Shown piece by piece: positions 4,609-8,942 of a stretch of 32,011 nt of DNA. The stretch is from an uncultured Chlorobiaceae bacterium (GTDB lineage Bacteria > Bacteroidota > Chlorobiia > Chlorobiales > Chlorobiaceae). Location of the stretch: contig CAJAIK010000038.1 in assembly GCA_903939765.1 (NCBI GenBank), positions 1 to 32,011 of the forward strand, written 5' to 3'. The notes below the pieces were generated by a model. That model saw only the letters and a list, made by a program, of their open reading frames with translations. It was not told where the DNA came from and made no database searches. The position numbers and the translations under genes are program-made. How positions within the stretch are numbered: position 1 is the stretch's first letter; every line of letters begins with the position of its first letter.

Positions 4609-5826
4609 TCATGGAGGAGGCTGGTTGGATGAAGGGTGCGACTCTTTTTTCCTGAAGTCGATTTTCAGCCATTGCTCCTCATAGATTGCTTCAGCAACCC
4701 GCATTCCAGCCAGAAAAAGCGGCAGAATGACACTTTTCTGGTAGTTGCCGATTCTCAGTGTCAGCGAGTCTCCAAGTTGCAGGACATTGGTCTCCATCTT
4801 GTTGTCGACGGCGAATGGGAGGCGCAGTTTCATGATATAGTGTCCCTCGCTGATTTTTGTAATGGAGGTGTGCTCCTCCTTATAGAAAATATCAAGGGGG
4901 TTCTTGTCGCCGTAGACCACTTCGCCTACAGTTTTCAGCATTTCAAGCCCGAGTACTTCGCGGCGGAAGAGGGGTACCTGCGTAATCGGGATGGGGGAGA
5001 AAGAGTGTTCAATCTGCTCAATGTATTTATGCTGAATACTTTTCCATTCACTCATGTACTCTCCGTCCATCTCATCGATGAACACCCGGTTGATGACTAC
5101 CTGGTCCACGGTGATGCCGTAAAGGTTGAGGTAGGTAAGCGCCCGCATCGACTCCTTGATCACCATCTTTTCGGGATTCATGACCAGACGTACAGTGGTT
5201 TTTGTTCCGTCCGACAGGAGCTCTATGATGCCCTCCACCGAGGAGAAGAGGTGTTCGATCTGGTCATAAACCTCGGTTTCGGGTACCAGGTCATGGAGAC
5301 GGCTTACCTTTTTTGAAAGGGGACGTATCAGCGGTTTGACCACATACTTTTCAAGGGTTCTTAACATCTTCAGCATCCAGCCGAAGGTTTCCGGCAGGGA
5401 GAGCAGTCGGAGGGTTTCGCCGGTCGGAGCGCAGTCTACAATGAGAAGATCATACTCACCGGATTCGTTGTATCGTTTGATATAGGAGAGGGAGAAGAGC
5501 TCCTCCATGCCGGGCAAAACCCCCATCTCTTCGACGTAGATCCCCTTGATGCCCTGTACTTCCATGAGATGTGCAAAGTGCGTACGGACTATCTCCCAGT
5601 TCAGTGTCAGGTCACCATAGACGCTCACCTCCTGCCCGTAGAGGTTCTCGGCAATCTTGACCGGAGAGGGACCAAGTTCAAGGTCGAAAGAATCCCCGAG
5701 GCTGTGCGCGGGGTCGGTTGAGATGACAAGGGTTTTAAAGCCCATTGATGCAGCTTTTACTGCAGTGGCTGCGGCTATCGAGGTTTTACCTACACCTCCC
5801 TTTCCTGTAAAGACGATTGTTCTCAT
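4609..5826 (-). CDS. ArsA/Get3-family ATPase with C-terminal HSP20-like domain
   Basis: The 405-residue protein has the deviant Walker A of the ArsA/Get3/MinD group at residues 8-15 (GKGGVGKT), switch I at 36-43 (STDPAHSL) and switch II at 131-138 (DCAPTGET). Residues about 325-395 resemble the HSP20-like domain found at the end of bacterial ArsA homologues. It is about two thirds of the two-domain arsenite-pump ArsA. The whole protein has one cysteine, C132 inside switch II, so neither the arsenite-binding triad of ArsA nor the zinc CxxC of Get3 is possible, and there is no arsenic gene nearby. The ATG at 5826 has a GGAG site about eight bases upstream. Family membership is secure; the cellular role is not known, and membrane-protein targeting or chaperone-like function is only a guess. 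Confidence 0.9.
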
Positions 5827-5960
5827 TTATGGCTCCAGTCCAGAAATATTGTTGCTTCCGCCGGTTTCGATAGTACTTGTAACTGTTCTGAAGTGTTGAT
5901 AATTCCGTATTTATGTTCTTCGAGCATATCAAAAGCGACAGAAGAGAGGTTGGCGTTGAT

Positions 5961-5989
5961 TTGTATGGTCGCAACTTTAATATTATAAT
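5961..5989 (+). promoter_or_regulatory. Sigma70-like promoter upstream of the sensor kinase
   Basis: TTGTAT (5961-5966), a 17-base spacer and TATAAT (5984-5989) give the best promoter match in the window. It lies about 280 bases upstream of the kinase start, so it would either produce a long leader or serve a small RNA. The predicted function rests on the motif alone. Confidence 0.4.
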
Positions 5990-6091
5990 CGTTGTTCAAT
6001 GTGCTTTTTTGCCTGGCATTATAAGAGTATTTTGCTTTCGCATCAGAGTTCGACGGAAAAGCAGTTGTCCATAACTCATATTGCCCTCATC

Positions 6092-6123
6092 TGTATTTCA
6101 TAGAAATCCTTGTATGAAATACA
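6092..6123. promoter_or_regulatory. Perfect 11-bp inverted repeat, likely transcription factor site
   Basis: TGTATTTCATA (6092-6102) and TATGAAATACA (6113-6123) are perfect inverted copies with a 10-base spacer, so half-site centres are 21 bases or two helical turns apart. A related half site with a two-base insertion starts at 6134. The repeat sits about 60 bases upstream of a TATAAT at 6184-6189, suitable for an activator or repressor of the kinase. Confidence 0.5.
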
Positions 6124-6183
6124 CAACAAAACATGTATTCTTCATAGGAAATAGCCTTTACTATAGAGCACCTTGCCTGTTTG

Positions 6184-6189
6184 TATAAT
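6184..6189 (+). promoter_or_regulatory. TATAAT -10 element proximal to the sensor kinase
   Basis: A perfect TATAAT lies about 80 bases before the kinase ATG and would give a leader of about 70 bases. No good -35 box stands 16-18 bases upstream, which is what an activator-dependent promoter can look like, and the inverted repeat at 6092-6123 is placed accordingly. Confidence 0.35.
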
Positions 6190-6268
6190 GCTCCGGGGGC
6201 GAGCTCAGATTTGGTCACCGGAAATTTTACTTAACTCTTTTCTTGTCAACATCATAACCGAGTGAATT

Positions 6269-8311
6269 ATGTTTTCCGCCATTAAAAAAAAGGCGACAAT
6301 CCTTGTTGTTGATGGTAGTTCTCTGATAAGCACATCAGTGTCATTGGTTCTCAAAAAGCTGGGTTATGATGTCATGACGGCAGATAATGGGGATAGTGCT
6401 CTTGAACTGTTGAAGAGCCTCAAGATTGATGTACTGTTTCTTGAGATCAGCATATCAAGGGAAAAAAATCAGGAGATTCTCTCGTACGTCCATGATCATT
6501 TATCCGATCTTCCGGTCATCGTGACCTCCGCGGCAATGTCAGAGAAGGATGAGGCTGATGTGTTTAAAATGGGGGCATTCGATTATCTGGTAAATCCTGT
6601 CAATAGTGCGAGGCTTGAAGTCACAATAAAAAAAGCGATTACAGAATCGGAACGTAGCCAGCAGGCGAACCTTTTCTCTATAGTGATTACCAATAGCCCG
6701 ATAACCATTGTTATTACCGATAAAGAGGGGAATATTGAATTTGTCAACAATGCATTTTGCCGAACGACCGGTTACTCTTTTAACGAAGTTGTCGGTCAAA
6801 ACCCGAGAATACTGAAATCCGGAGAACAGTCCGACAGTTTCTACAAGGAACTCTGGGATACCATTACCAGTGGAAAGAACTGGCATGGTGAATTTCATAA
6901 CAAGAAAAAAAATGGAGAGCTCTACTGGGAGTATGCCGTTATCATCCCGATCATCGATCCCACCTGGTCGGTTACGCATTTTGTCAGTGTCAAGCAGGAT
7001 ATTTCCTTGCGGAAAAAGGAGCATGAGGCACTTGCTGAAAGTGAACGCCGCTTTCAGGAACTTTCGGATCTTCTGCCGCAGACTGTTTTTGAAATTGACC
7101 TCAAGGGCTGGATTACCTATACCAACCGCATGGGCTTTGAAACCTTCGGATACTCTCAGGAGGATTTTCGTAGCGGAGTTCACAGTCTGATGCTTTTTGC
7201 GCCGGAGGAGCGCGAACGGGTCAAGCAGAATATGGCGTATCGTGTAAAAAATATTCCGTTTGACAATCATGAATATTTCGGCTTGAGAAAAGATGGGACC
7301 CTCTTTCCGATTCTGGTCTATACTTCACCGGTTATTCGGGATGGAGCGCCGATCGGCATTCGGGGTATTGTCCTCGACATTACGGAACGCAAACAAGTTG
7401 AGGAAAAACTGCAACTGTTGAACCAGACACTTGAAGAGCGTATTGAGGAGAGGACAAAAAAGCTTGACCAAACGCATCAGCAGATGATTTTGCATGAAAA
7501 ACTTGCATCAATAGGTCTCCTTGCCTCTGGAATTGCTCATGAACTGAACAATCCCATCAATTTTGTCATGATCAATTTTACAACACTCAAGGATGCGGTC
7601 TCCGACTTTCAGAAGATACTGAAAGGGTATAGTGGTATTATCAGGAAATTTGAGGAGGGGAGCTGCTCAGCCATGGATCTGCAGTCGATGCACAAGATGG
7701 AGACAGAGTTCGCTATCGACACGCTTTTTCAGGATATATCGGATATCTTTATCGAGTCACAACGGGGCTTTGAGAGAATAACGGCCATCATCTCAAGCAT
7801 GAGGAATTTTTCATTTCGTCACGCTCTTGATGAACGGGTTCTGTTTGATATTAATAACGGTATTCATGATGCGCTTGTCCTTGCACGTTACGAATATAAT
7901 GATTATGCAGATATCGAAACTGTCCTGGAAAAGCTTCCGCCCATTGCTTGTAATCCTGAGCAGATCAATCAGGTCTTTCTCAACCTTATTGTCAACAGTG
8001 CTCATGCCATAGCATCCCGGCAGAGCAGTTCACACGGTAAAATCACCATTCGTACCTGGCTTGACAGCAGTAACGTTTACTGTTCCATTGCAGATGACGG
8101 ACCCGGAATTCCGATTGAATTCAGAACTCGTATTTTTGATCCTTTTTTCACGACAAAAGAGCCCGGCAAAGGCACCGGACTTGGGTTAAGCATCTCTTAC
8201 GATATTATTGTCAATAAACATGGCGGGACGCTCACGGTCGATTGCCCAACTGAAAAAGGCACCGTTTTTACGCTTTCACTGCCACTGAAAACCGGAGCGG
8301 CGGTGCTCTGA
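6269..8311 (+). CDS. PAS-domain sensor histidine kinase with degenerate N-terminal receiver
   Basis: The 680-residue cytoplasmic protein has, in order: a receiver-like domain (about 9-125), two PAS domains (about 137-250 and 258-375, both followed by PAC-like ends such as GIVLDITERK), a coiled coil (about 375-408), a histidine phosphotransfer helix with H424 in the AHELNNPINF motif, and an HATPase domain (N box around N572/N576, DDGPGIP at 609-615, GKGTGLGLS at 633-641). No membrane segment is visible. The kinase core looks complete. The receiver keeps Asp15 and Thr86 but has Gly16 for the second acidic residue, Glu59 where the phosphorylated Asp is expected, and Asn109 for the invariant Lys. 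It is therefore probably not phosphorylated. No response regulator lies next to it. The ATG at 6269 has only a weak ribosome site. Confidence 0.92.
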   Translation: MFSAIKKKATILVVDGSSLISTSVSLVLKKLGYDVMTADNGDSALELLKSLKIDVLFLEISISREKNQEILSYVHDHLSDLPVIVTSAAMSEKDEADVFKMGAFDYLVNPVNSARLEVTIKKAITESERSQQANLFSIVITNSPITIVITDKEGNIEFVNNAFCRTTGYSFNEVVGQNPRILKSGEQSDSFYKELWDTITSGKNWHGEFHNKKKNGELYWEYAVIIPIIDPTWSVTHFVSVKQDISLRKKEHEALAESERRFQELSDLLPQTVFEIDLKGWITYTNRMGFETFGYSQEDFRSGVHSLMLFAPEERERVKQNMAYRVKNIPFDNHEYFGLRKDGTLFPILVYTSPVIRDGAPIGIRGIVLDITERKQVEEKLQLLNQTLEERIEERTKKLDQTHQQMILHEKLASIGLLASGIAHELNNPINFVMINFTTLKDAVSDFQKILKGYSGIIRKFEEGSCSAMDLQSMHKMETEFAIDTLFQDISDIFIESQRGFERITAIISSMRNFSFRHALDERVLFDINNGIHDALVLARYEYNDYADIETVLEKLPPIACNPEQINQVFLNLIVNSAHAIASRQSSSHGKITIRTWLDSSNVYCSIADDGPGIPIEFRTRIFDPFFTTKEPGKGTGLGLSISYDIIVNKHGGTLTVDCPTEKGTVFTLSLPLKTGAAVL

Positions 8312-8330: not shown

Positions 8331-8942
8331 CTATGCGAGTTTGAAGTTTTTGAAGTCTTTGGTTATGGAGTGAAACATTTTGTTGGTTGCAGTCTGCATG
8401 ATCATCGACATGCCGGCATTGGTCATGGCGTGCAGAATTTTTTCGGGGACAATTCGAAATGCCGGGTAAAGAACAAACCTGACATCAATTTTCAGATCAA
8501 ATTGAACCCTTGTGTTGTTTCCCTTCACAGGGTGCATATTCATGTCGCCAAAAGCTTTGCCCTCAAAGAGATACTTCGCAGGATCCTCAATTTGTGTGGT
8601 GACCGGATAGTGTTTCCAGTGGATCTTTTTGCCTATGGTGTAAAGTCTGATTGTTTCGTCGGAAAGCCCTTCAGGATCTTCGCATGCAATGTGCTCCGGC
8701 AACTCCACCAGAAGTTCTTCGCTCTGCTCGACAAAAAAGATGACATCGAAGGGGTTGTTCTGCGGATCGGTAACACGAAAAAGCCACTTGTAGACATTTT
8801 CAATCTCCGTGAGTTCTACACTGTGGCAAAACGGGTTGAAGGCCAGTATTCTTTTCTGGTCAGAAAGATAGGCTGTCGTCCGCTCAAATTCTCCTTGAAA
8901 GATCCAGTCGCCTTTGCTTACTCCAGTTGCATCCATTTCCAT
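8331..8942 (-). CDS. DUF1997-like conserved protein
   Basis: This 203-residue soluble protein has no signal peptide or membrane segment. Its pattern (an early [20 protein letters not shown], alternating hydrophobic strands, and a late [21 protein letters not shown] helix) suggests a START/SRPBCC-like lipid-binding fold and resembles the DUF1997 family of cyanobacteria, plants and green sulfur bacteria; that family call is from memory and uncertain. It ends 19 bases from the kinase stop, facing it, and a TCGCA/TGCGA hairpin (8325-8338) lies over its stop. No clear ribosome site precedes the ATG at 8942. A later in-frame ATG at 8936 is also possible. The function is unknown. Confidence 0.75.

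Follow-up and report, generated by a model that had tools for sequence, protein, structure and literature searches.

A putative phosphate-independent pseudo-receiver in a Chlorobiaceae sensor kinase encoded outside the usual operon of its family

Introduction

Pseudo-receivers make up about 6% of a representative bacterial receiver set, and about 80% of them have no acid at the second-acid position (PMC12632262). A glutamate at the position of the phosphorylated aspartate is often insufficient on its own for activity (PMC4395418), and in some pseudo-receivers the residue at this position was disproved as the cause of activity (PMC12632262). In ShkA and CikA, the pseudo-receiver inhibits autophosphorylation and binds a ligand or a protein (PMC12632262). 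In the SypE-SypA system of Vibrio fischeri, polysaccharide and biofilm are under the control of a STAS protein, the target of a REC-PP2C protein that is switched by a sensor kinase (PMC10120452).

In this study, we analyzed a window of 32,011 nucleotides, the whole stretch of DNA considered, from an uncultured Chlorobiaceae bacterium (genome G000), in which a sensor kinase gene begins with a receiver-like domain altered at three active-site positions. Like the described pseudo-receivers (PsR) and aspartate-less receivers (ALR), the domain matches PF00072, has a receiver fold (here by prediction), misses catalytic residues, keeps a Ser87/Tyr106 pair, carries Glu at the Asp position and has no obvious partner gene alongside; unlike them, it is N-terminal on a PAS histidine kinase, and sister species show intermediate states of loss (PMC12632262; PMC4395418). 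As in ShkA and CikA, the pseudo-receiver and a histidine kinase belong to one chain (PMC12632262); here, the pseudo-receiver is N-terminal and its chain has no other receiver match. By analogy, the logic of SypE-SypA may apply to a PP2C/STAS gene set of green sulfur bacteria; however, SypE also has a serine kinase domain (PMC10120452), for which the green sulfur bacterial PP2C protein, with its PAS domain, gave no match, and the window kinase is not linked to the PP2C gene set.

Materials and Methods

Relatives were sought by a protein search of 86 Chlorobiaceae genomes and by a scan of genome contigs; the loci used were 30 from the protein search, 11 from the contig scan and 20 chosen stretches, a selection from the matches listed. 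Open frames matching the window receiver at E ≤ 1e-15 gave 49 distinct REC-PAS rows, the window included, with identical copies counted once (the sequences of L041 and of the G059 locus, for example, are identical); two receivers stand outside these rows, that of G037 because of a contig edge and that of G001 because its gene is split. Receiver positions were set by the alignment of the 49 rows, and residue states are written in the order 15/16/59/87/109. A maximum-likelihood tree was built from 38 rows on the PAS and kinase columns, with the receiver columns excluded and 11 rows with a differing kinase part (L060-L070) left out. Codon models were run on fixed trees; each fitted a single omega per set, shared by its sites and branches, and they are silent on individual residues.

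Results

Active-Site Residues and Domain Organization

The features of the kinase gene and its flanks were as follows.

4609..5826, minus strand: ArsA-type ATPase, divergent, upstream neighbor of the kinase and one flank of the site (Pfam)
6269..8311, plus strand: sensor kinase reading frame, REC-PAS-PAS-HisKA-HATPase, 680 aa, ATG start (ORF list, Pfam)
6299..6628, plus strand: putative pseudo-receiver domain (PF00072 / Response_reg), residues 11-120 (Pfam; AlphaFold2 fold)
6311-6313, plus strand: D15, first acid, kept, codon gat (codon reading, alignment)
6314-6316, plus strand: G16, second acid lost, codon ggt (codon reading, alignment)
6443-6445, plus strand: E59 at the phospho-Asp position, end of beta3, codon gag (codons, alignment, AlphaFold2)
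6527-6529, plus strand: S87, conserved Thr/Ser position, kept, codon tcc (codon reading, alignment)
6593-6595, plus strand: N109 at the conserved Lys position, just after beta5, codon aat (codons, alignment, AlphaFold2)
6704..7006, plus strand: PAS domain 1, residues 146-246 (Pfam)
7067..7396, plus strand: PAS domain 2, residues 267-376 (Pfam)
7517..7612, plus strand: HisKA stretch with H424 (codon 7538-7540), below the Pfam cut-off
7952..8290, plus strand: HATPase_c (Pfam) with motifs DDGPGI and GTGLGL (by eye)
8331..8942, minus strand: DUF1997 protein, convergent, downstream neighbor of the kinase and other flank (Pfam)

Codons read directly in the 6269-8311 frame bore out G16, E59 and N109, the three changes reported in a preliminary description of this DNA; D15, S87 and Y106, which the alignment showed to be retained, had gone unmentioned there; P110 is retained as well. 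The domain matched Response_reg with 61 bits (cut-off 30.2, E 1.5e-16) while lacking some of the residues required in phosphotransfer, and its phospho-Asp position was replaced by E59 in the window and three relatives. By sequence, it qualifies as a pseudo-receiver and, in the window, also as an aspartate-less receiver, a kind already known; with pseudo-receivers at about 6% of bacterial receivers, an altered receiver alone is unsurprising, and the loss of the second acid is typical, since about 80% of pseudo-receivers share such a loss. The combination of Glu with the conserved Thr/Ser and Lys that marks a Glu-locked active receiver was absent: S87 was kept, and the Lys was replaced by N or H in all four species with E59. 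A role as a normal phosphate acceptor is very unlikely, in agreement with the preliminary description.

Behind the PAS domains, the HisKA stretch scored 20.6 bits, under its cut-off of 26.9, with H424 plain by eye in GIAHELNN, and HATPase_c scored 85.1 bits; the phospho-acceptor His and the ATP-binding motifs of a HisKA kinase are thus both present. Pfam gave no further receiver match in the 680-aa chain. The kinase gene lies in the most A+T-rich part of the window (6001-8000, GC 0.43); GC was 0.45 in two windows overlapping the gene and 0.47-0.56 in the rest.

Residue States in Relatives and Order of Loss

Position 59 was D in 44 and E in four of the 48 readable rows, position 16 was D in 32 of 48 readable rows, and position 109 was K in 39 of the 49 rows, N in four, H in four, Q in one and T in one. 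The window belongs to a clade of 11 genomes with the gene beside DUF1997, where E59 was found in 4 of 10 readable rows (the six others keep D59), D16 was missing in 8 of 10 and K109 in 9 of 11, the residues being G/D/R/S at 16, E/D at 59 and N/H/Q/K at 109. The states were DGESN in the window, DDESN in L041 and L043, DRESH in L042, DGDSH in L016 and L017, CGDSH in L044, ESDAQ in L019, EGDAK in L045 and DSDSK in L058, so that D15 is also lost in three relatives (E in L045 and L019, C in L044). L046 has N at 109, its receiver being broken off at about residue 61; the Asn printed at its position 59 was discarded, as it lies upstream of the break and is not receiver sequence. E59 was limited to four sampled species and was kept by all four readable species of its five-row subclade, and the G16+E59 pair occurred in the window species only, the other three E59 species having D, D and R at 16. 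None of G16, E59 and N109, whose conservation the preliminary description had proposed to check, is therefore fixed within the clade.

The whole receiver was in frame in 10 of the 11 genomes. Altered receivers were found in 10 of 10 readable genomes of the clade, and decay confined to one strain was ruled out. Homologues with an intact D-D-K set, named there as a pointer to such decay, do exist at 48-63% identity, most of them operon-linked; they are on a different branch, however, and the altered form has a lineage of its own. In L074 (G054), unrelated sequence about 140 nt from the contig end takes the place of the first half of the receiver, by truncation or assembly fault. Six operonic kinases of a second sampled genus (L038, L040, L037, L039, L054, and L055) show N or A at the second-acid position but retain both Asp59 and Lys109. 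In the single-contig genome G001, the operonic gene L105 (4540-7698) contains about 1.1 kb extra (4894-6006) between receiver and PAS-kinase; in the receiver piece, the second acid is replaced by A and the conserved Lys by R.

In the tree, the window fell in the 11-row clade with support 100/100. With L022 (an extra non-operonic copy in G058; DGDST) and L057 (G046; DNDSK), the clade formed a 13-row orphan lineage, the support of which (94/91) is just under the 95/80 mark of the tree tool. D-D-D-S-K occurred in none of the 12 fully readable rows of this lineage and in 19 of 25 outside it, the other six being without D16 only; outside the 11-row clade, it occurred in 19 of 27 tree rows, and 17 of these 19 lie directly upstream of a REC-PAS-PP2C gene. 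Parsimony gave two changes for the loss of K109, one for D59 and four for D16, with Lys109 lost before Asp59. From the nesting, the losses would have run from the second acid to Lys109 and then, in one subclade, to Asp59, an order that for L041 and L043, which have D16, needs a return to D or separate losses.

Gene Neighborhood

The preliminary description missed the gene context: the kinase gene is separated from the operon in which it usually lies, and a PP2C gene set has no kinase at its head. The context is known for 37 rows, and in 23 of them a REC-PAS-SpoIIE/PP2C gene directly follows the kinase (for L059, adjacency was inferred by joining two contig ends; L056 was left out of the count because of a contig end). 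Downstream of most PP2C-linked kinases are a WecG/TagA-type glycosyltransferase, a bacterial sugar transferase, STAS proteins and a hexapeptide protein, some with a sigma-54 activator; from these protein families, we infer that the set makes exopolysaccharide. The 14 rows without an adjacent PP2C gene are the 13 of the orphan lineage and L053 (G011); L057 was scored non-adjacent since its contig ends inside the gene, and since G046 has a single PP2C match, which is next to the other kinase copy.

The window kinase is a full-length homologue of the operon-borne kinases, at 51-63% identity to operon-linked rows matched along its entire length and in one tree with them, and is not adjacent to a PP2C gene, its neighbors being ArsA and DUF1997. 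In all 11 genomes of its clade, the kinase gene is directly beside DUF1997. In eight of them, ArsA flanks the kinase gene on its opposite side within one contig (with about 4.5 kb between in G059); in G054 and G075 a contig end comes before it, and G052 has ArsA on a separate contig. ArsA and DUF1997 share a contig in 44 places, of which 8 hold this kinase with a gap of 1.8-6.6 kb and 36 are kinase-free; less than 1 kb separates the two genes in 12 of the latter and more in 24. The idea that the kinase gene was inserted into a pair otherwise always tight was rejected on the larger gap in 24 of these 36 places; as the pair occurs without the kinase and with varying gaps, the site is a variable one. 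G058 and G046 each carry an operonic and an orphan-lineage copy, and G011 has two copies as well, which speaks for a duplication, with the operonic copy lost afterwards, rather than for a simple move. The window kinase is probably a copy of an operon-borne kinase that came by duplication to lie elsewhere.

K109 was lost in 10 of 14 rows without a PP2C neighbor vs. 0 of 23 with one, and D59 in 4 of 13 vs. 0 of 23. An independent-pairs test of relocation against residue loss, with two context changes and two pairs, gave no significance, the events being few. Among the relocated genes, L045, L058, and L057 keep D59 and K109, and six operonic rows have lost D16. L053 (G011:C86), a second copy away from the PP2C gene on a long branch, kept D-D-D-S-K, and the operonic receiver of G001, with A and R at the second acid and Lys109, lies outside the 23 rows because it is split from its kinase. 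The link between relocation and residue loss is thus suggested by a pattern from few events with the counter-examples L053 and G001, and is not proof. The idea that the lost phosphodonor was a partner kinase upstream of the operonic gene was set aside, a second kinase gene being directly upstream in only five loci (L087, L089, L090, L104, and L036).

Selection Pressure and Predicted Fold

In nine relocated genes, omega was 0.364 for the receiver, 0.132 for PAS1, 0.206 for PAS2 and 0.146 for the kinase region, whereas three operonic sets of six gave 0.180, 0.134 and 0.127 for the receiver and 0.164, 0.074 and 0.101 for the kinase region; PAS and kinase values were alike in relocated (0.13-0.21) and operonic genes (0.07-0.19). 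An omega of 1 was rejected for the relocated receiver (lnL -1898.57 vs. -1930.88). By pairs within the relocated clade, receiver omega was 0.22-0.40 in 7 of 10; L041-L042, P0001-L046 and L016-L017 gave 0.65, 0.64 and 1.1, not different from 1. Purifying selection on the relocated receiver is relaxed relative to the operonic genes, yet it is real, and the domain does not evolve neutrally. A pseudogene was ruled out for the window: the frame is open, and every domain shows purifying selection in the set of nine genes to which the window gene belongs.

Position 109 was K in all 24 operonic-type rows (L056 among them) and held five different residues in 11 orphan rows. In these 11 rows (L046 and L057 outside the count), 31 of 119 receiver positions were invariant; positions 23, 39, 80, 90, 112, and 127, among others, were invariant there and variable in the operonic-type rows, which is partly a matter of time, since the orphan lineage is narrower. 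A Met-Ser pair at 90-91, after beta4, was aligned in 13 of 13 orphan-lineage rows and in 0 of 36 others. AlphaFold2, run with a 43-row family alignment, gave an ordinary (beta-alpha)5 receiver of five strands and five helices (mean pLDDT 89.3), which solved receivers matched at query TM 0.75-0.87 among the 50 matches listed. The receiver is thus predicted to keep its fold.

The PP2C Gene Set as a Candidate Target

The gene set with the PP2C gene survives in 8 of the 11 clade genomes (G000, G051, G052, G054, G056, G062, G067, and G069), where the match covers 535 or 536 of 541 aa; it was partial in G075 (87% complete), and at E 1e-30 no match was found in G059 (85% complete) and G044 (97% complete). 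In G044, L106 (5965-7185), beside DUF1997, keeps REC-PAS-PAS and has lost the kinase domain beyond the second PAS, after a stop. The PP2C gene of the window genome is on contig C47 (G000:C47) with no kinase upstream, and among nine PP2C loci of the window group (G081 included), the eight with a visible upstream region have no adjacent kinase gene. The PP2C gene of G067 is followed, after about 3.4 kb, by a relative of another kinase, one of 780 aa.

The receiver of the PP2C protein was D-D-D-S-K in 36 of 36 examined, nine of them from the window group (L095, L102, L103, and L105 outside the count). In all nine (L111-L119), Ile-His follows the conserved Ser-Gly, where the other 27 have Ser/Thr and then Gln/Glu; this may possibly be a co-change in an unlinked candidate target. 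Across the 86 genomes, a long PP2C match was found in 33 of 37 with the kinase vs. 6 of 49 without (Fisher p 2e-13, uncorrected for phylogeny; cut-offs of E about 1e-150 or better for the kinase and 1e-140 or better for PP2C). G026, with a 431-aa PP2C match at 1e-113, is outside the cut and would make it 7 of 49.

Discussion

Our analyses suggested that the window kinase carries a pseudo-receiver acting without phosphate, placed before an intact kinase core, in a copy of the gene outside its usual operon, and we give this reading a probability of about 0.6. The receiver would have lost normal aspartyl phosphorylation and would persist as a phosphate-independent module before the PAS sensors, serving in a dimer or linker contact or as a brake on autophosphorylation, the last idea being modeled on ShkA and CikA, whose pseudo-receivers inhibit it. 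The kinase would autophosphorylate at H424 and pass the phosphate to a receiver in trans, for which the REC-PAS-PP2C protein at G000:C47 is the best candidate, because its receiver is D-D-D-S-K and its gene set has no kinase at the head. This kinase would most likely act on the PP2C receiver in trans; against this, five other kinases of G000, among the matches listed, are 45-53% identical to it in the kinase region, a relative of the 780-aa kinase lies near the PP2C gene of G067, and the co-occurrence count is uncorrected for phylogeny. It is also conceivable, if doubtful, that away from the operon the receiver was remodeled into a ligand- or protein-binding module like those of ShkA and CikA, while the kinase still drives the separated PP2C/polysaccharide switch in trans; the Met-Ser pair of the orphan rows and positions 39, 80, and 112, invariant in 11 of these rows and variable in the 24 operonic-type rows, can be offered for such a change.

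The preliminary description had raised the possibility of a fixed switch, in which E59 mimics a phosphorylated aspartate and holds the receiver, and hence the kinase, in one state. The retention of E59 throughout the readable part of its subclade speaks for this, as do the structural matches, which include the constitutively active PhoB double mutant D10A/D53E (2jb9, rank 38), whose D10 and D53 we take to be the same two places as G16 and E59 of the window. Glu is moreover the commonest replacement in aspartate-less receivers (26%) and activates some receivers (PMC4395418; PMC12632262), but in ChxR, replacing Glu with Asp or Ala did not abolish DNA binding (PMC4395418). The expected partner of the mimic, K109, has given way to N or H in each of the four E59 species, and its loss precedes that of Asp59 on the tree; the G16+E59 pair is confined to the window species, and six other readable rows of the clade keep Asp59. 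The Glu mimic is thus not what the clade conserves, and with its Lys partner gone and Glu confined to one subclade, a locked switch is improbable and less likely than a phosphate-independent module.

Slow decay of a receiver that no longer has a function, with only the PAS and kinase domains mattering, would account for a receiver omega that exceeds the kinase-region value of these genes by a factor of 2.5, for the three close pairs not significantly different from 1, for active-site letters that vary from species to species and for the unrelated first half of the G054 receiver, though the latter is close to a contig end. We nevertheless consider such a relic unlikely: neutrality was rejected by 32 lnL units on nine sequences, the receiver is whole and in frame in all but one of the 11 genomes with its predicted fold intact, and 31 of its positions do not vary in the 11 orphan-lineage rows. 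D15, S87, and Y106, retained in the window, might still allow weak or unusual phosphorylation, via D15 or as another modification; with the second acid, the acceptor Asp and the Lys all changed, and D15 itself gone in L045, L019, and L044, this is very improbable. The preferred reading remains a pseudo-receiver that acts without phosphate.

Titles and abstract openings among the matches listed contained none on this Chlorobiaceae kinase family, which is not proof of its being unpublished. The value of the finding lies in the series of intermediate states in sister species and in their link with a changed gene neighborhood. Within one kinase family, living relatives have receivers that are intact, altered in part or altered throughout, and an unlinked candidate target survives; this range of states makes the role of a phosphate-independent receiver testable by domain swaps between species.
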